Shown here: positions 3-12,209 of the stretch, one piece after another
Position numbering within the stretch: position 1 is the first letter of the stretch
Layout: each line of letters starts with the position of its first letter
From: Rhizobium sp. LCM 4573
GTDB lineage: Bacteria; Pseudomonadota; Alphaproteobacteria; Rhizobiales; Rhizobiaceae
DNA length: 15,445 nucleotides
Direction of reading: 5' to 3'
Assembly (NCBI RefSeq): GCF_001854865.1
Contig: NZ_MDDW01000005.1
Coordinates: 162,035-177,479 of the forward strand
Notes under the pieces: generated by a model
Seen by the model: only the letters and a program-made list of their open reading frames with translations
Told to the model about the DNA's origin: nothing
Databases searched by the model: none
Made by a program: the position numbers and the translations under genes

Positions 3-1139
3 ATGAGAAAGCTTCTCCTAAAAACCGCCGTAGAGAAAACGGGAAACGATACGGTGATCCGCGTTTTTCTGATTGGCGACGGCCTGCCGCGCGAAGTACA
101 AGACGGCGGCATCTACTTCCATCTGAAAGGATATACAGGCTTCAAACCCTCGTCTCTCCACGATGGCCTGATGTTTCTTTTCCTTTTCGTGGCGATGGAA
201 GGCTTTGACGTATTCGAGATTGACGCTCCTGTAAGCCGCAAGGCAATCCGAAATGCTCATGCATTCCAGGAGGCGTGGGCTTGTCTGATGCCCGACCGAT
301 ACAAAGCGTGCAAAATCTCAGCCAAGAAAGAGGTTGGCGACTTCTGGCTTTCCCTTCGGCGCAGTGAGACAGCGCTGTCAGCCTTCTCGGGCGGCTTAGA
401 CGCAACCTTTCTAGCAGTCCGCCAGTCTCAGTCGCACAATTGGACGTACCCGCTCAAAGCATCTGTAATGATCCACGGCTTCGACGTTCGCTACGATAAC
501 GATGAAGCCTTTGACCGGCTCGTGTCGCGCGTGGAACCATTATTGTCAGGCTTGAAGATCAAGCCGTACTTGGTGAAAACCAACATTCGACAGTATGAGT
601 TGCAGAGTTGGGAACACAGCTTTGCCGCCCAGGCAGCCGGCGTAATGCACCTGTTCTACAAGGATTACTCCTACGCCCTGTTCGGAAGCTCCGAACCATA
701 CGACAACCTCGTATTCCCATGGGGATCTACGCCGGCGACTGATTACTTGTTGTCCGGCGCAGGCTTGGATTTAGTCCACGAGGGAGCCGGTTACTCGCGA
801 ACCGAAAAGGCCGCCCTTGTCGCCACTAACTCCATCGCGAAACGCACCCTCAAAGTGTGCTGGGAGGGACAAGATCAGGCCGTGAACTGCGGCCGCTGCG
901 AAAAATGCGTGCGGACTCGCCTTAACTTCATGGCAGTGGGGGTGCCGAATCCCGAGTGCTTCAATGAACCATTCGAGGCCGACATGATCCGCACTATATC
1001 AGTTAAGGTGCCTGCCCAGCTTACAGAATTGAAAACGATACTGGATTATTGTCGCAAGCACGATGTGCATGGCGAATGGGTCACAATCCTTCACAAGAAA
1101 ATCGAGGAGCAACAGTTGCGATTGGCGAAGGCGGCTTAG
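3..1139 (+). CDS. QueC-like PP-loop (adenine nucleotide alpha hydrolase) family protein, accessory gene
   Basis: A 378-residue protein of the large N-type PP-loop family to which QueC and asparagine synthetase belong; its substrate is unknown. Seen: a P-loop SGGLDA at residues 129-134 (the consensus ends in Ser, here Ala), and a probable zinc site with Cys286, Cys296, Cys299 and Cys302 in the CGRCEKCVRT segment, resembling the C-terminal Cys cluster of QueC. The stretch GSTPATDYL...HEGAGYSRTEKA before the cysteines is also typical of an uncharacterised QueC-like family. Known: PP-loop enzymes adenylate a substrate with ATP. Inferred: an accessory (moron) gene, not a virion part, because it lies on the opposite strand at the end of the late operon and is visibly poorer in G+C (28 of the first 60 bases). 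Only two bases precede the ATG, so the true start could lie outside the window and no ribosome site can be judged. No queD, queE or folE partner is visible. Family is fairly sure; function is not. Confidence 0.8.
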   Translation: MRKLLLKTAVEKTGNDTVIRVFLIGDGLPREVQDGGIYFHLKGYTGFKPSSLHDGLMFLFLFVAMEGFDVFEIDAPVSRKAIRNAHAFQEAWACLMPDRYKACKISAKKEVGDFWLSLRRSETALSAFSGGLDATFLAVRQSQSHNWTYPLKASVMIHGFDVRYDNDEAFDRLVSRVEPLLSGLKIKPYLVKTNIRQYELQSWEHSFAAQAAGVMHLFYKDYSYALFGSSEPYDNLVFPWGSTPATDYLLSGAGLDLVHEGAGYSRTEKAALVATNSIAKRTLKVCWEGQDQAVNCGRCEKCVRTRLNFMAVGVPNPECFNEPFEADMIRTISVKVPAQLTELKTILDYCRKHDVHGEWVTILHKKIEEQQLRLAKAA

Positions 1140-6965: not shown

Positions 6966-7614
6966 TGATGAACACCTCTGTCGCGGTGAAGCTGATTTCA
7001 CGATTGTCCCAGGACGCCGGGCCATCGTAGCTGCCTGGGTCAATCTGCATGGTGCAGGACGGCTTTTCGAAGTGTGCCGTGCAGGGCAGCGTGAACACTC
7101 CGGTATCGAGCCCGTACTTGATCGAGAGGGTTACCACGCCGGAACTATTCGCCGTCGCCGCCTGCCGGATCCTGTGAAGGGACCGAACAAGAGAAGACTT
7201 GCGGATTTCCACATAGTCACCGGGCGAAAGCTGGAAGCCTGCCGGCAGCCCGGAGACGACGATTGTGCGAGTGTCGAGGATCGACTGAAGGACGGCGTCA
7301 CCATTGAACACCCCTCCCGCCGCCATCGTGCCCGAGAGTGGAGCCCCGGTGTCCATCAGGATCGGCCGGGGCCGGAACACGTCATACCCAAGGAAGGTCT
7401 CGCCATCGTCTCCGGCCTCCATCATGAAGGCGTCCATCAGTCCGTAAGCCTTCTTGTCCAGCCAGACGGTGCGAAGCCGCATTGTCCAGTAGGGAGTGCC
7501 GAAGCTTTGGGCTTCCGTTCGGCGCCCTTCCATGCGTTCGGTATCGCGGGGACGGACGGGATCAAACACCCTCTCCTTCCAGCCCACGAGCGGCATCGAG
7601 ATCGGATCAGCCAT
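6955..7614 (-). CDS. Probable distal tail protein (Dit-like)
   Basis: A 219-residue protein directly downstream of the tape measure gene, the normal place for lambda gpM or Dit. Seen: an N-terminal half with RRTEAQSFGTPYWTMRLR and GETFLGYDVFRPRPI, and a beta-rich C-terminal half with LPAGFQLSPGDYVEIRKSSL and HFEKPSCTMQIDP. Known: Dit-type proteins form a ring that caps the tube and carries the tip. The assignment rests mostly on position and beta-rich character. The ATG at 7614 is preferred over the GTG at 7623 because GGAGGTG lies 7 bases before it; it overlaps the end of the tape measure gene by 8 bases (ATGGCTGA). Confidence 0.75.
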   Translation of the reverse strand: MADPISMPLVGWKERVFDPVRPRDTERMEGRRTEAQSFGTPYWTMRLRTVWLDKKAYGLMDAFMMEAGDDGETFLGYDVFRPRPILMDTGAPLSGTMAAGGVFNGDAVLQSILDTRTIVVSGLPAGFQLSPGDYVEIRKSSLVRSLHRIRQAATANSSGVVTLSIKYGLDTGVFTLPCTAHFEKPSCTMQIDPGSYDGPASWDNREISFTATEVFINGS

Positions 7615-9700
7615 AATCGACACCTCCGTTCTGATACCGGTTTTCGCGGGCCTTGTTGCTCTCCTGAACCACCGTCACGGCAATATCCTGGCTTTCTGCC
7701 CGGATGGTCGGCCGGAACATCGGCCCTTCCTCTCCGATGACGCGAAGCACTACCTCCTGACGCGCGGGCGCGCTGGTCGCCGCCGGCGAAAGATTGCTGT
7801 TTGCGGCACGAAGCTGATGGTTCGGAACGACCTGCTCGCCGCCCTTGAACCGAACGAGTTCCGGGCCTTCCTCACCCACGATTGCCATGCCGGCACGAGC
7901 GGATGCGGTGCCCGAGGCGTATAGGCCAACCGAAGGCGCCGGCGGGAAGTAGCTAGTGCCACGCCCACCGCCAAACAGACCGCCAAAAATTGAGCTGAGA
8001 AACCCTCCGCCACCGCCGCCACCAATACCGGATGATGCGGAGTTCACCTTGAAGAGGGCATCCATTACCTCGTTCAGCAGCTTGTCCGTGATGCGATCGA
8101 GGACATTCAGCGCAGCTTTACCGAAACTGGACCAGAAGCCCTCACCGTTCTTGAGCCCGTTCCGAAGGTCGTTGACGAAGCCTGCAGTCGTTTCCTTGGC
8201 GAAATCAAGCGCCTCTTTGGCCTTCTTCGTCGCGAGCTCGGTGGCCGCCATCTGACCCGCGAGACCTGACAGCTCCGCGCGCTGAGCAGCCGTCAGGTTG
8301 ATGCCCCTCTGCTGTGTCTGGTTCAGCAGATCGGTTTCGTACTTGAGCTTGAGAGCGGCTTCCTCGGTCATGCCGAGGGCGGCTTCCTCTGCCTTCAGCG
8401 AGGCAATACGACGGTTTGCGCCATCGACGATATCCGAATACTTCTCTGCTTCGGTTTTGCCGCCCTTCTTCTTCGATTTTTCATCGACTTCCGTCAGGCT
8501 CTTAGCAAGTTCCTTGAGCTTAGCGGAGGCGGCAGATGCACCATTGCTGATCGCCGCACCGATATCCCCGAGGTAGTCATGGTTCAGCGCATCCGCGACC
8601 GCCTTGTTGCGCGCCGCAACACCTTCGGAAAGGTCGGAGGCATACGAGTTTTCGAACTGTCCAAAATCAACAGAGCCAATTTCGCCAATCTGAAAGCCGC
8701 CCGGAAGATTGGCCAATGCACCATTTACGCTCTGGATGAGCTGATTGAGCAGGCCCGAAGCAGCGTTGATCATCTTCTCCATGGCGGAGATGGCCGCATT
8801 TGCCGCCCCGACGGCAGCGGCGCCAACGATGTTCGGGAACTGGTTCCACACGAACTTGATGTCTTCGAAGGCAGCGACGAACGAGCCAATGACAAGGTTC
8901 ACGCCGGTCTTTGCCGCGCCGACGATGTCTACTCCGAAGATCTTCGTCAGCTCGTCCCGGAATATGCTGGCGGCAGCAACGGCGGCCGTGATCCCGGCTA
9001 CGAAGGCAATCGCCGGGTTAGCTGCGGCGAAGGATGCCGCGAGACCGAGTGCGGCGACCGATAGACGGCCAAGGAGCGCGATAAGCTGCACAGTGCCGCC
9101 GATGATGGCGGGAGCATAGAGAAGCGCCAGGCCAGCAGCCGCGGCGGCAGCGTAAGGCGCAATCGTCTGGAGAACGTCGGCAAGCCCATTCAAGGCTGCC
9201 GCGGCAAGACCAGACCAATCGACCAACTGCAAGCCAGCAGCGGCCACAGCAGTGAGGGCGATCGATACCAGCGTTACCGGAGATAGCAGAGAGGCGAAAG
9301 CCGCCGCGAAGACCGATGAAGCCTTAGCTCCGCCCTGCATCGCCATTTCCATCTGGCCGGCGATCTGTGTACCCTGCTGGAGCGCGATCAGCAGCGGGTT
9401 CATGCCCATGGCGGCCGTCACTGCAACATCTTGCGCTTGCGCCGCCAGCCCCGACATGCTGCCACCCATACGACGAGCATTGTCATTCATGGCGACGGCT
9501 TGCGCCTTTGCCGCAGTTGCCGCCTTCTGAAATCCTCCCGCAGCGGATGCTGCCACGGCTCCAGCATTCTTCGTGGATGCCGACAGGCCATCAGCCGCCA
9601 CATCCGCTGCCTTCGCCGCATTGGTGAGCCTGGTCAGTTCGGATGTCGCCCGGTCAGCACCTTTGCTGCGAATTTCGATCCCCAGTGAGGCGACGTCCAT
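7607..9700 (-). CDS. H: Tail tape measure protein
   Basis: A 697-residue tape measure protein. Seen: a helical N-terminus with many Ala; NPLLIALQQGTQIAGQM at 101-117, a hallmark of the lambda gpH-type tape measure N-terminal domain; two hydrophobic Ala/Gly-rich stretches (about 129-215 and 216-275) suited to membrane insertion during DNA injection; a Lys/Glu-rich helical rod (about 390-510); a glycine run (560-566); and GEEGPELVRFKGGEQVVPNH at 609-628, a common C-terminal motif. Known: the rod sets tail length and is chaperoned by the gpG/gpGT pair. The ATG at 9700 is preferred to the TTG at 9706; only a weak AAGG lies upstream. Unlike other junctions, it is separated from the chaperone gene by about 800 bases holding the opposite-strand HNH gene. 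Confidence 0.93.
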   Translation of the reverse strand: MDVASLGIEIRSKGADRATSELTRLTNAAKAADVAADGLSASTKNAGAVAASAAGGFQKAATAAKAQAVAMNDNARRMGGSMSGLAAQAQDVAVTAAMGMNPLLIALQQGTQIAGQMEMAMQGGAKASSVFAAAFASLLSPVTLVSIALTAVAAAGLQLVDWSGLAAAALNGLADVLQTIAPYAAAAAAGLALLYAPAIIGGTVQLIALLGRLSVAALGLAASFAAANPAIAFVAGITAAVAAASIFRDELTKIFGVDIVGAAKTGVNLVIGSFVAAFEDIKFVWNQFPNIVGAAAVGAANAAISAMEKMINAASGLLNQLIQSVNGALANLPGGFQIGEIGSVDFGQFENSYASDLSEGVAARNKAVADALNHDYLGDIGAAISNGASAASAKLKELAKSLTEVDEKSKKKGGKTEAEKYSDIVDGANRRIASLKAEEAALGMTEEAALKLKYETDLLNQTQQRGINLTAAQRAELSGLAGQMAATELATKKAKEALDFAKETTAGFVNDLRNGLKNGEGFWSSFGKAALNVLDRITDKLLNEVMDALFKVNSASSGIGGGGGGGFLSSIFGGLFGGGRGTSYFPPAPSVGLYASGTASARAGMAIVGEEGPELVRFKGGEQVVPNHQLRAANSNLSPAATSAPARQEVVLRVIGEEGPMFRPTIRAESQDIAVTVVQESNKARENRYQNGGVDYG

Positions 9701-9710
9701 GCTCAATACC

Positions 9711-9779: not shown

Positions 9780-9808
9780 CTAACCAGCCAACCTTGTCGG
9801 AGGTCAAC

Positions 9809-10519
9809 GTGGCTAATTCTCGTCTATGCTCGATTCCCAGCTGTTGCAAGAAGCACTATGGCAACGGCTTCTGCGTTGCCCATTACACTCGCCACCGTCG
9901 TTATGGTGACCCTCTGATTGGCGGAGAGACGATTAAGGCCCCGCCACCCGTCACTTGCACCGTTCCCGGTTGCGGCAAGAAAGCTCGCGGCCACGGCCTT
10001 TGCCAAAGCCATTACATGCGCCAGCGCCGCACCGGAGACCCGCTCGGCAGCAATAGGCGTGAAGCCAAGTTGCTAAAGTGGATCAGGGATCACGCGGAAT
10101 ACGACGGCGATGGATGCCTAACGTGGCCCTTTCATAAGCACCCGGTAGCACCTGGCGATACCTACATCGAAGGCCGGAAGGCGAAGGCTACCCGTATCAT
10201 GTGCGAAATCGCGCATGGCCCTGCCCCATCGCCCGACCACGAGACTGCCCACAGCTGCGGTATGGCCCATGAGTGGTGCATCCATCCGCAGCATTTGCGA
10301 TGGGACACTCACAAGGGCAACCACGAAGACCGCATCGAACACGGCACATCGAACCGTGGCGAGCATAACGGACGAGCTAAGCTTACCGCCGCAGACGTCC
10401 GCGCTATCCGTGAACTGCGGGGCAAAGCAACCCAAGAAGACATAGCCGATCGCTTCAACGTCTCACGGCGGACAATTGGTGACATATACAATGGTCGCCG
10501 TTGGGCTTGGTTGGACTAG
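9809..10519 (+). CDS. Free-standing HNH homing endonuclease with paired zinc modules
   Basis: A 236-residue DNA endonuclease. Seen, in order: two similar zinc modules with identical spacing, C7-x4-C12-x9-C22-x2-H25 and C50-x4-C55-x9-C65-x2-H68, each followed by an R-rich YGDPL or TGDPL phrase; an HNH_3-type nuclease core (AHSCGMAHEWCIHPQHLRWD, about 147-166, then HKGNHEDR), where His159 stands where Asn is usual; and a C-terminal helix-turn-helix (about 190-235, KLTAADVRAIRE...EDIADRFNVSRRTIGDI) for target recognition. Known: such genes spread by cutting alleles that lack them. The GTG at 9809 is chosen because GGAGGT lies 4 bases upstream; the TTG at 9794 lacks a site. It lies opposite to all neighbours, its stop overlaps the chaperone's stop by 4 bases, and the tail transcript must cross it in antisense. 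Confidence 0.9.
   Translation: MANSRLCSIPSCCKKHYGNGFCVAHYTRHRRYGDPLIGGETIKAPPPVTCTVPGCGKKARGHGLCQSHYMRQRRTGDPLGSNRREAKLLKWIRDHAEYDGDGCLTWPFHKHPVAPGDTYIEGRKAKATRIMCEIAHGPAPSPDHETAHSCGMAHEWCIHPQHLRWDTHKGNHEDRIEHGTSNRGEHNGRAKLTAADVRAIRELRGKATQEDIADRFNVSRRTIGDIYNGRRWAWLD
10516..10519. other. Shared CTAG double stop
   Basis: The palindrome CTAG supplies TAG to the HNH gene (10517-10519) and TAG to the chaperone extension on the minus strand (10518-10516). No terminator is visible, so transcripts from either side probably continue into the other gene in antisense. Confidence 0.85.
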
Positions 10520-11285
10520 CCCTTCCCCGGCTTTTCATTCGCCACTCGCTGCGCCTCGCGCTCCTTGGAAAGAGCATCGAGGTATGCGTCGTCCATATCG
10601 GTGATGATGGTGATTTCCTCTCGGAGGAGGATTTCTCCGGTAAGACGGGACCAAGAGGCGATCTCGGCATAGGTGAGCGGCTGGGGTCCGTTCATTCCCT
10701 GCGGGCGGCGCCGGTTGAGCAGCCAGAACGCCGCCCACAGGCTTTCACCCTCTTCCGGTATCTCCGGCTCCTGGATCAGTTCATCGCGGCCAAAGCGCTC
10801 GTACATCTCTCGCTTGGAGACGATGTCCTTTCCATCTCGGCCCCGGTCGAGTTCATATCCAGGGGTGTTGAACTCGACCGTGATGGAGACCGCCTGAGTT
10901 AAGCGGTCTCCGAGAGTGCGAAAAAAGCCGCTTCGTCTCCGAGAGCAACGTCGATCTGCTTGGCGAGCGCCGGCACCGCGAGCAGCTTGCGCTTGTTCGC
11001 TTCGGTGCAGGCCGGTTTCTTGTCGCCGCCCAGATTGGCATCGCCGGAGAAGGTCCATGACACGATGGCCGCCGAAAGGAGAGCGATGGTGTTGTCATCG
11101 ATCTTCTCGGCGGTGACCGTGTTCCGGCCGCCCTTGAGCGCCTTGTTCTTCAACTGGCGCTCGACGGCCTTCACCTCATCGCTTTCGAGACTGCGAAGTT
11201 CGACAGTGACGCCCAGGTTTTCGCCGGTCGCCGGATGCTTGAGGTCAAGCGTGATGGTATTCGGCTGGAGGGTAAGAAGGTCCAC
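10516..11285 (-). CDS. Frameshifted tail assembly chaperone (gpGT-like fusion)
   Basis: A 256-residue fusion made by a -1 ribosomal frameshift: 122 residues in the first frame (to Phe121-Phe122), then 134 residues in the -1 frame starting RTLGDRLTQAVSITVEFN. Seen: the second frame (re-read from 10920 to 10516) has no ATG, GTG or TTG near its beginning and no ribosome site, the first in-frame ATG being deep inside (MYERFGRD), so it is best explained as an extension. It contains LWAAFWLLNRRRPQG and LTYAEIASWSRLTGEILL, then an acidic/basic helical end. Known: lambda G and GT act together, the T part binding tube subunits while they coat the tape measure. Slippage at 10920-10926 is described separately. 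Confidence 0.85.
10871..10926 (-). promoter_or_regulatory. Programmed -1 frameshift signal (slippery site, hairpin, possible pseudoknot)
   Basis: Reading the minus strand: slippery heptamer T TTT TTC at 10926-10920, in phase with the first frame (GCT TTT TTC GCA); spacer of 8 bases (10919-10912); a perfect 9-bp stem GGAGACCGC (10911-10903) with GCGGTCTCC (10893-10885); loop TTAACTCAG containing the zero-frame TAA (10901-10899). AACTC of the loop (10900-10896) is complementary to GAGTT downstream (10875-10871), so an H-type pseudoknot with 9- and 5-bp stems is possible. Geometry matches known -1 signals; the pseudoknot is inferred. Confidence 0.85.
10899..11285 (-). CDS. G: Tail assembly chaperone (gpG-like, unshifted product)
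   Basis: A 128-residue protein, product of normal termination at the TAA inside the frameshift loop. Seen: beta-rich start MDLLTLQPNTITLDLKHPAT, then a helical middle (SLESDEVKAVERQLKNKALK) and helical end (KRKLLAVPALAKQIDVALGD). Position between the tube and tape measure genes and the frameshift into a second frame identify it as the lambda G counterpart. Known: G is made in excess over GT and coats the tape measure before tube assembly. The start is a GTG at 11285 with GAGGTG about 5 bases upstream, fused to the previous gene's stop (TGAGGTGATCCGTG). Low sequence conservation in this family means recognition is by context. Confidence 0.87.
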   Translation of the reverse strand: MDLLTLQPNTITLDLKHPATGENLGVTVELRSLESDEVKAVERQLKNKALKGGRNTVTAEKIDDNTIALLSAAIVSWTFSGDANLGGDKKPACTEANKRKLLAVPALAKQIDVALGDEAAFFALSETA

Positions 11286-11293
11286 GGATCACC

Positions 11294-11782
11294 TCAGGGC
11301 GTTTCGACAGGGGCAATGAAGAGCGGGCGCTGATCGGTGAAGGCCACGGTGTAGCTTTCCCGGATGAAATCGTCGGTGCTTCCGCCGAGAAGCTGAGGAC
11401 CGGATACCGGCCCAGCCGCATACATGATCGTATTCGACCATTCCGGGCCGGGTGCGTCCGCATATTCTATCTTGACCGCATAGTTGAACTTGGTTCCCGC
11501 GGCCGCCCGCATGGCGATCTGACCGGGGTCATCGAAGATGCGAGCAACCTCGATCGACAGCTCGCCGGCATCCTCAACTCCCTTGGCCTTCGAGGTCACT
11601 TCCGTGTCCAAGGTGTTGTAGGAGACGATGTTCGGCGCGGCGCCATAGTCGCCCAGGTTGCCGACCGAGCCGACGGGCGTGAAGGTAAGCGCACCGAAAC
11701 CCGCGGCGTTGAGCGGAAGCGTGACGGGAGCGGTGCTGATCGACACCAACGCCCCTTGAAGTGTGGTCTTGATACCAGCCAT
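11294..11782 (-). CDS. Major tail tube protein
   Basis: A 162-residue protein beginning MAGIKTTLQGALVSISTAP. It is beta-rich, with segments such as YGAAPNIVSYNTLDTEVTSK and GELSIEVARIFDDPGQ that look like tube proteins of the lambda gpV/HK97 gp6 fold, and an aromatic C-terminal part (IRESYTVAFTDQRPLFIAPV). Known: hexamers stack to form the tail tube around the tape measure. The order terminator, tube, chaperones, tape measure is the canonical siphophage order and supports the call. The ATG at 11782 has GGAG upstream and follows the terminator gene's TAA after one base; a reading from 11806 would start inside that gene. Confidence 0.87.
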   Translation of the reverse strand: MAGIKTTLQGALVSISTAPVTLPLNAAGFGALTFTPVGSVGNLGDYGAAPNIVSYNTLDTEVTSKAKGVEDAGELSIEVARIFDDPGQIAMRAAAGTKFNYAVKIEYADAPGPEWSNTIMYAAGPVSGPQLLGGSTDDFIRESYTVAFTDQRPLFIAPVETP

Positions 11783-11783
11783 G

Positions 11784-12209
11784 TTAGTTCTCCGGGGTGA
11801 ATGCAAAGTACGGGATGGAGACGGGAACCCTCATCCGGTCCACGTCTTTGAGTGGGCTTGCTGCCCAGGGCTCGCTGCTGATCGTGATCTTCACGCCAGA
11901 GGCGAATAGGGTTTGGTTCTTGAAGCGGTCGATGATCTGCCCGGCGACCTCGAGGGCTTCGGTCAGCCCGATACCGAGCGGCCACATCACCGACGCCTGC
12001 ATGATGCCCCGCTTCTGCTGCGGATCGTCACCCATCGTGATCTGACGGGTTTGGTTGGGCAGGAAGGTGAGTTCGATGAACTTGCCCGGCTTCGTCTGGC
12101 CTGAGGCCGGGAACGTGACGTTCGGTCCAGCGATCGGCAGGATGTTCGGTATGGTGCGCAAATGCGTTGCCAGCGCACTGAAGATGATTGCGTCCGTGCC
12201 CGTCGGCAT
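11784..12209 (-). CDS. Tail terminator / tail completion protein
   Basis: A 141-residue protein directly before the tube gene, the slot of lambda gpU. Seen: helical start (DAIIFSALATHLRTI), then FIELTFLPNQTRQITMGDD, a QQKRGIMQASVMWPLGIGL strand pair, a second helix (EALEVAGQIIDRFKNQTLF) and a final strand (RMRVPVSIPYFAF). This alpha-beta layout and the phrase around the R-G-x-x-Q strand match the DUF4128/phage tail terminator-like family. Known: the hexameric terminator caps the finished tail and joins the head. The ATG at 12209 overlaps the previous gene's stop by one base (TAATG), with GAGGA about 10 bases upstream. Confidence 0.8.
   Translation of the reverse strand: MPTGTDAIIFSALATHLRTIPNILPIAGPNVTFPASGQTKPGKFIELTFLPNQTRQITMGDDPQQKRGIMQASVMWPLGIGLTEALEVAGQIIDRFKNQTLFASGVKITISSEPWAASPLKDVDRMRVPVSIPYFAFTPEN

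Follow-up and report, generated by a model that had tools for sequence, protein, structure and literature searches.

Does the locus examined here, on the minus strand of a 15,445-nucleotide stretch of Rhizobium sp. LCM 4573 (contig NZ_MDDW01000005.1, positions 162,035 to 177,479; hereafter, the window), encode two tail assembly chaperones in one gene, and, if so, which sequence elements would carry ribosomes from one reading frame into the other? A sequence-only reading of the window had described a −1 frameshift cassette in a tail chaperone gene, together with a possible pseudoknot. The elements that it described are all present, and we consider it very probable that −1 programmed ribosomal frameshifting yields two tail assembly chaperones from one prophage gene, in the manner of lambda G/GT. 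ORF layout, family matches, conservation, and codon and structure statistics form the basis of this explanation, and from them we infer that slipping occurs, how efficient it is, what each stimulator contributes and that the products act as chaperones.

Gene layout and homologues

The genes concerned are as follows (window coordinates).

11294..11806, minus strand: major tail protein gene, the upstream neighbour (phrog_158, E = 1.6 × 10−17)
10899..11285, minus strand: G-like tail assembly chaperone ORF of 128 amino acids (GTG start and TAA stop, from the ORF list)
10516..10926, minus strand: −1-frame T part of 136 codons, starting at the heptamer and ending in TAG (Phage_TAC_18 match)
7607..9706, minus strand: tape measure protein gene, the next tail gene downstream (TMP_2, E = 9.6 × 10−10; phrog_8892, E = 4.1 × 10−117)

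The G-like ORF, with its GTG at 11285 and its TAA at 10901-10899, matched a tail assembly chaperone family (phrog_313, E = 1.8 × 10−12), and a Pfam search of it gave no match. The ORF of T's −1 frame matched Phage_TAC_18 (PF23812, E = 4.6 × 10−14). As in lambda G/GT, T is in the −1 frame and overlaps the end of G, and the pair has the major tail protein gene on one side and the tape measure gene on the other. Since 136 codons of the −1 frame lie between the heptamer and the TAG, the G+T fusion is predicted to be 256 amino acids long. In three Rhizobium phage records, the G and T regions are annotated as separate hypothetical proteins. Searches of NCBIfam with G, T, the HNH protein and the first ORF of the window (both described below) gave no match, nor did a sequence search of solved structures with the G profile at E values up to 1. 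Rfam returned two matches in 10500-11300 at E values up to 5, with scores that fell far short of the gathering threshold and both to other elements, and a simple promoter scan of 10500-11350 found no promoter-like site.

An HNH endonuclease ORF (9794-10519, plus strand; phrog_59 and phrog_5351 matches) separates T from the tape measure gene. Among 27 loci, the gap between these two genes ranged from −6 to 1652 nt (0 in L007 and L008), and 3 of the 27 had a match to the window's HNH protein, namely its own copy and those of L007 and L017, which are placed elsewhere, upstream of G. Phage RHph_X2_24 has an annotated homing endonuclease at the T/tape-measure junction. Also on the strand opposite the tail genes is a 378-amino-acid ORF (3-1139, plus strand) with weak matches to DUF6395 and to a QueC-like phage family.

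Homologous loci were gathered from GTDB contigs (3), from IMG/VR (24 and 42, in overlapping sets), from relatives (14 of 300, 6 of 397 and 39 of 394 genomes, the window's own genome being counted each time) and from Rhizobium phages (4 records of 3 phages, of which 3 records were used). With the window, these amounted to 123 sequences and 77 unique sites, and the 46 heptamer-bearing sites formed 21 clusters at 85% identity.

The slippery heptamer and probable entry into the second frame

The elements around the proposed slip are these.

10937..10940, minus strand: SD-like GGAG, 10 nt before the heptamer (from codon bias and a positional anti-SD scan, 46 sites)
10920..10926, minus strand: slippery heptamer T_TTT_TTC (from phase and conservation)
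10912..10919, minus strand: spacer of 8 nt (from sequence)
10903..10911, minus strand: 5′ arm of hairpin 1, GGAGACCGC (from folding, codon nulls and the cluster scan)
10899..10901, minus strand: zero-frame stop TAA, within the loop of hairpin 1 (from sequence)
10885..10893, minus strand: 3′ arm of hairpin 1, GCGGTCTCC (from folding, codon nulls and the cluster scan)

In the G frame, the heptamer at 10926-10920 reads GCT TTT TTC, the phase for tandem −1 slipping, and the letters of the minus strand thus confirm, for this site near the end of G, the claim that TTTTTTC lies in the correct phase. An in-phase TTTTTT(C/T) was present in 46 of the 77 unique sites (40 with C, 6 with T), including 46 of the 48 closest (HMM E value up to 1 × 10−35). 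The two exceptions among these 48 are L044, whose six T are in a different phase, and L102, in which TTTTTTC is displaced by one base from the required phase and a simple −1 slip would therefore miss the T frame. In L102, T would need a +1 (or −2) shift, which may reflect a real variant or a sequencing error. The other 31 unique sites comprised 16 with AAATTTT, one each with AAATTTC and GGGTTTT, and 13 without an in-phase heptamer, 9 of which, judged by eye, carry a U_UUU or U_UUC tetramer there. AAATTTT replaces U6 at the same place in a distant branch (L038, L041, L043, L104-L108 and others), in several sites of which GGAGG or GAGGA precedes the heptamer and a hairpin is predicted to follow it.

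Codon choice at the slip site was skewed, by counts made over related sites, which are non-independent events. Phe-Phe occurred within the last 22 codons of G in 48 of the 77 unique sites, unconditioned on the heptamer, and its first Phe was TTT in all 48; at other positions in G and T of the 46 sites, TTT made up 59 of 230 Phe codons. The alanine preceding Phe-Phe was GCT in 37 of 38 sites, against 106 of 634 alanine codons at other positions in G of the 46 sites.

The point of entry into T is narrowed by stop codons on both sides. In 18 of the 46 sites, a stop closes the −1 frame at most 12 nt upstream of the heptamer (directly abutting it in L103), so T would be entered at or just after the heptamer, and the earliest zero-frame stop falls 13 nt after the heptamer's first base. 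Conservation of T sets in at the heptamer, with FFRxLG in many sites, and only 3 of 46 sites have a T-frame start codon between the heptamer and a point 75 nt further on. These observations bear on whether T might instead be translated independently from an internal start, the heptamer being incidental. The window does offer candidate starts, with an ATG at 11058 in a −1 frame that stays open upstream and another ATG at 10806-10804; however, a conserved T that begins at the heptamer, an upstream −1 frame closed within 12 nt in 18 of 46 sites and the scarcity of start codons up to 75 nt past the heptamer (3 of 46) argue against this. Because stops bracket the slip and start codons are so few, we regard independent initiation of T as extremely unlikely.

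A second route to a fusion would be slippage of RNA polymerase on the T6 run, giving mRNAs of altered length from which normal translation would make the fusion. The run is indeed present, and has seven T at six sites, but bacterial cases are on runs of nine A or T in the available text of PMC5009743, whereas 40 of the 46 sites here have six. The phase of the heptamer, the placement of the hairpin and the SD-like site point to the ribosome rather than the polymerase, and we consider polymerase slippage highly improbable.

Family matches, conservation of the heptamer, bracketing by stops and a well-placed structure signal (below) thus bear out the central claim of the sequence-only reading, and a −1 frameshift cassette in the tail assembly chaperone gene is strongly supported. 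In the proposed mechanism, most ribosomes would translate the 128-amino-acid G and terminate at the TAA, and a minority would slip back one base on U_UUU_UUC, with both Phe-tRNAs re-pairing with UUU, and read on in the −1 frame to give a 256-amino-acid GT fusion with the Phage_TAC_18 domain. A hairpin beginning 8 nt downstream would aid the slip, as probably would the GGAG 10 nt upstream, by pairing with the 3′ end of 16S rRNA in the elongating ribosome. If lambda is a guide, the tape measure protein would be bound by the G part, with the T part bringing in the tail tube protein.

Candidate stimulators on either side of the heptamer

Upstream, GGAG, on which the sequence-only reading had not remarked, lies in the codons of G-D-E-A-A-F-F, where codon use departed from that of the rest of the gene. 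Glycine occupies the GGAG codon in 42 of the 46 sites and is encoded by GGA in 30, GGG in 11, GGT in 1 and GGC in none, with GGC accounting for 209 of 305 glycine codons elsewhere in G; at the cluster level, GGA or GGG is used in 16 of 17 glycine-bearing clusters (binomial P = 1.8 × 10−8 on a background of 0.28). For the glutamate that precedes the heptamer codon by two codons, GAA is used in 41 of 45 sites (17 of 20 clusters; P = 2.6 × 10−4), and GAG at that position would set GAGG beside the slip site. In the 9-mers ending 8 and 5 nt before the heptamer, predicted anti-SD pairing was 2.1 and 1.9 kcal/mol stronger than the codon null; it was 1.7 and 1.8 kcal/mol weaker than the null in the two 9-mers adjoining the heptamer, and stayed within 1 kcal/mol of the null at the remaining positions of the roughly 150 nt scanned. 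Taken sequence by sequence, the anti-SD test was not significant, with P < 0.05 in only 1 of 43; the pooled codon and positional tests were made after this result and the codon columns were known.

These patterns suggest that the upstream GGAG probably acts as an SD-like frameshift stimulator. Its distance from the heptamer is the same as in dnaX, where the SD-to-heptamer spacing is 10 nt. We compared the GGAG, 10 nt before the heptamer, with the upstream-SD rule given in the accessible part of PMC4066793; the passage seen there counts 3 of 13 IS and prophage clusters, which it does not name, as having conserved SD-like sites, and an excerpt of PMC5009743 describes an upstream SD in dnaX and estimates that 56% of IS elements have one. 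A less likely but still plausible alternative keeps the frameshift and its hairpin and ascribes the GGA/GGG and GAA bias to something other than SD pairing, such as a stretch kept unstructured. It would fit with the single significant sequence among 43, with the tendency of G-D/E residues by themselves to favour an SD-like GGNGA, and with the absence of glycine there in 4 of the 21 clusters. It would account less well for GGG being retained no less than GGA and for the avoidance of GGC and GGT, for predicted anti-SD pairing that stands out 5-8 nt before the heptamer from roughly 150 nt scanned, and for pairing weaker than the null immediately beside the heptamer.

Downstream, the 8-nt spacer, the perfect 9-bp stem and the zero-frame TAA in its loop had all been read correctly, as the letters confirm. 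The loop between the arms is TTAACTCAG; RNA folding lengthens the stem from 9 to 11 bp by adding a U-G and a U-A pair, leaving AACTC as the loop. The hairpin starts 8 nt past the heptamer, in keeping with the rule, in the portion of PMC4066793 available, of a hairpin that starts 4-10 nt past the motif with a G-C pair. In the window, its z score was −2.83, with 4 of 200 dinucleotide shuffles equally stable. Because the T frame is coding, we used codon-preserving nulls, under which P was 0.078 when only codons past the zero-frame stop were randomized and 0.040 when all −1-frame codons past the heptamer were. The LG(D/E) protein motif of the T frame fixes part of the hairpin's 5′ arm, which is why nulls that keep this arm matter. 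The window's own hairpin is thus only borderline under codon-preserving nulls, and the strength of the case comes from homologues. Across 43 unique sequences, the mean z score was −1.24 with codons past the zero-frame stop randomized (P < 0.05 in 14 of 43) and −1.47 with all −1-frame codons past the heptamer randomized (P < 0.05 in 18 of 43). A cluster scan along the gene placed the strongest signal at +8/+11 from the heptamer's first base (mean z score −1.02/−1.04), where 19 of 21 clusters had negative z scores, that is, were more stable than the codon null, and the mean MFE was about −16 kcal/mol.

The hairpin is kept in different forms: its 3′ arm shifts register between clades, which are nearly invariant internally in the covariation analysis, and clade-specific stems include CGGCGAGC/GCTCGCCG, CGGCGAC/GTCGCCG, a bipartite stem in L056-L064 and one of 12 bp in L028. 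Within clades, there is little covariation of the stem, with pairs counted for A2 and A3, two of five alignments. The one G-C to A-U double change, in L019, was matched by 104 of 500 shuffles, and stem 1 in the window's clade has no covariation, with one mismatch each in L030 and L008 and one G-U in L007. In some relatives the hairpin is absent or weak (L046 has no 5-bp stem, and z1 is above 0 in L067, L077 and L046).

Several further features of this region were recorded. The cluster scan had another peak at +80 (mean z score −0.90; 18 of 21 clusters negative; about 10846-10801 on the minus strand of the window), a structure signal that spans about 80-126 nt past the heptamer in the T frame with folds that vary by clade, and a weaker one at −196 (mean z score −0.68; 15 of 21 clusters). 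The 11-base CTCTCGGAGAC occurs twice on the minus strand, at 10945-10935 and 10916-10906; because one copy is at the SD-like site and the other at the hairpin start, the hairpin 3′ arm could in principle pair with either. The hairpin was also considered as a terminator and rejected, as neither of the two terminator-like sites in a scan of 10500-11350 is at the hairpin.

The sequence-only reading had further proposed that the loop AACTC pairs with a downstream GAGTT, making an H-type pseudoknot, with the 9-bp stem as stem 1 and AACTC/GAGTT as stem 2, the stimulator of the same frameshift. Two more features are relevant here.

10871..10875, minus strand: GAGTT, the proposed pseudoknot partner, 9 nt past the stem, judged a chance match
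10845..10880, minus strand: a second hairpin in the predicted fold (−17.9 kcal/mol), which would hide GAGTT

The letters do fit, and stem 2 is intact in the window and in L030. In the four-sequence window clade, 90.0% of stem 2 cells are paired versus 94.4% for stem 1, a difference by which this clade alone does not decide on the pseudoknot. Yet the match was no better than codon-matched chance (P = 0.6), as 60% of codon-randomized downstream sequences paired equally well in the window, a consequence of V-E-F fixing much of GAGTT. Across 45 sequences, P had a median of 0.96, with a match of 5 or more in 5. The suggested check by covariation, which found none for stem 1 in the window's clade, gave no help to stem 2 either: L007 and L008 each lose one of its pairs without a compensating change (L008 also has one U-G), and stem 2 was not found in other clades. 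Forming the pseudoknot would cost two inner pairs of stem 1 (from −18.8 to −16.1 kcal/mol, a loss of 2.7 kcal/mol) for a duplex of −3.0 kcal/mol. In a fold that cannot itself contain pseudoknots, the probability that GAGTT is unpaired was 0.001 or less once at least 75 nt downstream were folded, and GAGTT was partly free when 60 nt were folded. The region of the second hairpin, at offset +44, was no more structured than the codon null across clusters. Failing the codon null, the comparison with other clades and the accessibility of GAGTT, the pseudoknot was rejected as the likely stimulator, and we consider it very unlikely.

Relation to known frameshift systems and meaning

Frameshifting of the G/GT type, and U_UUU_UUC as a predicted site in tail genes, are already known, and that the window holds a further case is well supported. 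The lambda G/GT tail assembly chaperone frameshift was reportedly described by Xu, Hendrix and Duda in 2004. Like lambda G/GT, the pair in the window precedes the tape measure gene, has T in the −1 frame and would slip near the end of G; unlike lambda, whose slippery site is GGGAAAG, the window's gene combines U6C with an SD-like site and a hairpin, and its fusion is a predicted one. The TAC domain in T is a further likeness to lambda G/GT and its relatives. The excerpt of PMC5009743 describes G-T frameshifting as widely conserved in long-tailed phages, with a lambda ratio of 30:1; in an HK97-like cluster, two fs-genes gave measured frameshifting of 6% and 7% (PMC3711429, from the part available). 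The window's heptamer, U_UUU_UUC, is also the predicted −1 site in the tail chaperone 17.5/17.5* of SPP1 (PMC6316719) and in the putative tail assembly genes of PaMx73, core ORFs 35/36 (PMC4378225), phages of Bacillus and Pseudomonas, respectively; the portions of these two sources examined differ from the present case in describing no stimulators.

In its layout, with an SD-like site upstream, a heptamer and a hairpin downstream, the cassette resembles those of dnaX and IS911, as presented in the available passages of PMC7282821, PMC5009743 and PMC4066793, which give the IS911 upstream SD-like site as GGAG, as in the window. The dnaX and IS911 genes are unrelated to the tail chaperone, and the dnaX heptamer is A_AAA_AAG; the likeness is an analogy of mechanism, not membership. 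The earlier view that so strong a structure is notable here fared unevenly: the hairpin itself was borne out, but it is less exceptional than supposed because conserved hairpins are predicted in other phage frameshift clusters (3 of 5 in the text seen of PMC4066793, whose authors judged few of them relevant). A limited literature search found no description of an SD-like site and a hairpin together in a tail chaperone gene.

Together, these results lead us to favour, somewhat tentatively, a reading in which an entire lineage of tail chaperones, common to rhizobial phages and prophages, uses a three-part cassette (SD, U6C and hairpin) like those of dnaX and IS911. Heptamer and SD-like site would be constant, sequence resembling an SD would be kept out of the immediate neighbourhood of the slip site, and the hairpin would have been rebuilt, clade by clade, in new registers. 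If this reading is true, each phage may set its own G:GT ratio, because the hairpin would be rebuilt per clade while the heptamer and SD-like site stay fixed. The G and T of these phages should be annotated as one frameshifted gene. The 21 clusters form a natural series, with the heptamer and, mostly, the SD-like site constant and the hairpin variable, that is suited to measuring how stimulators set the G:GT ratio.
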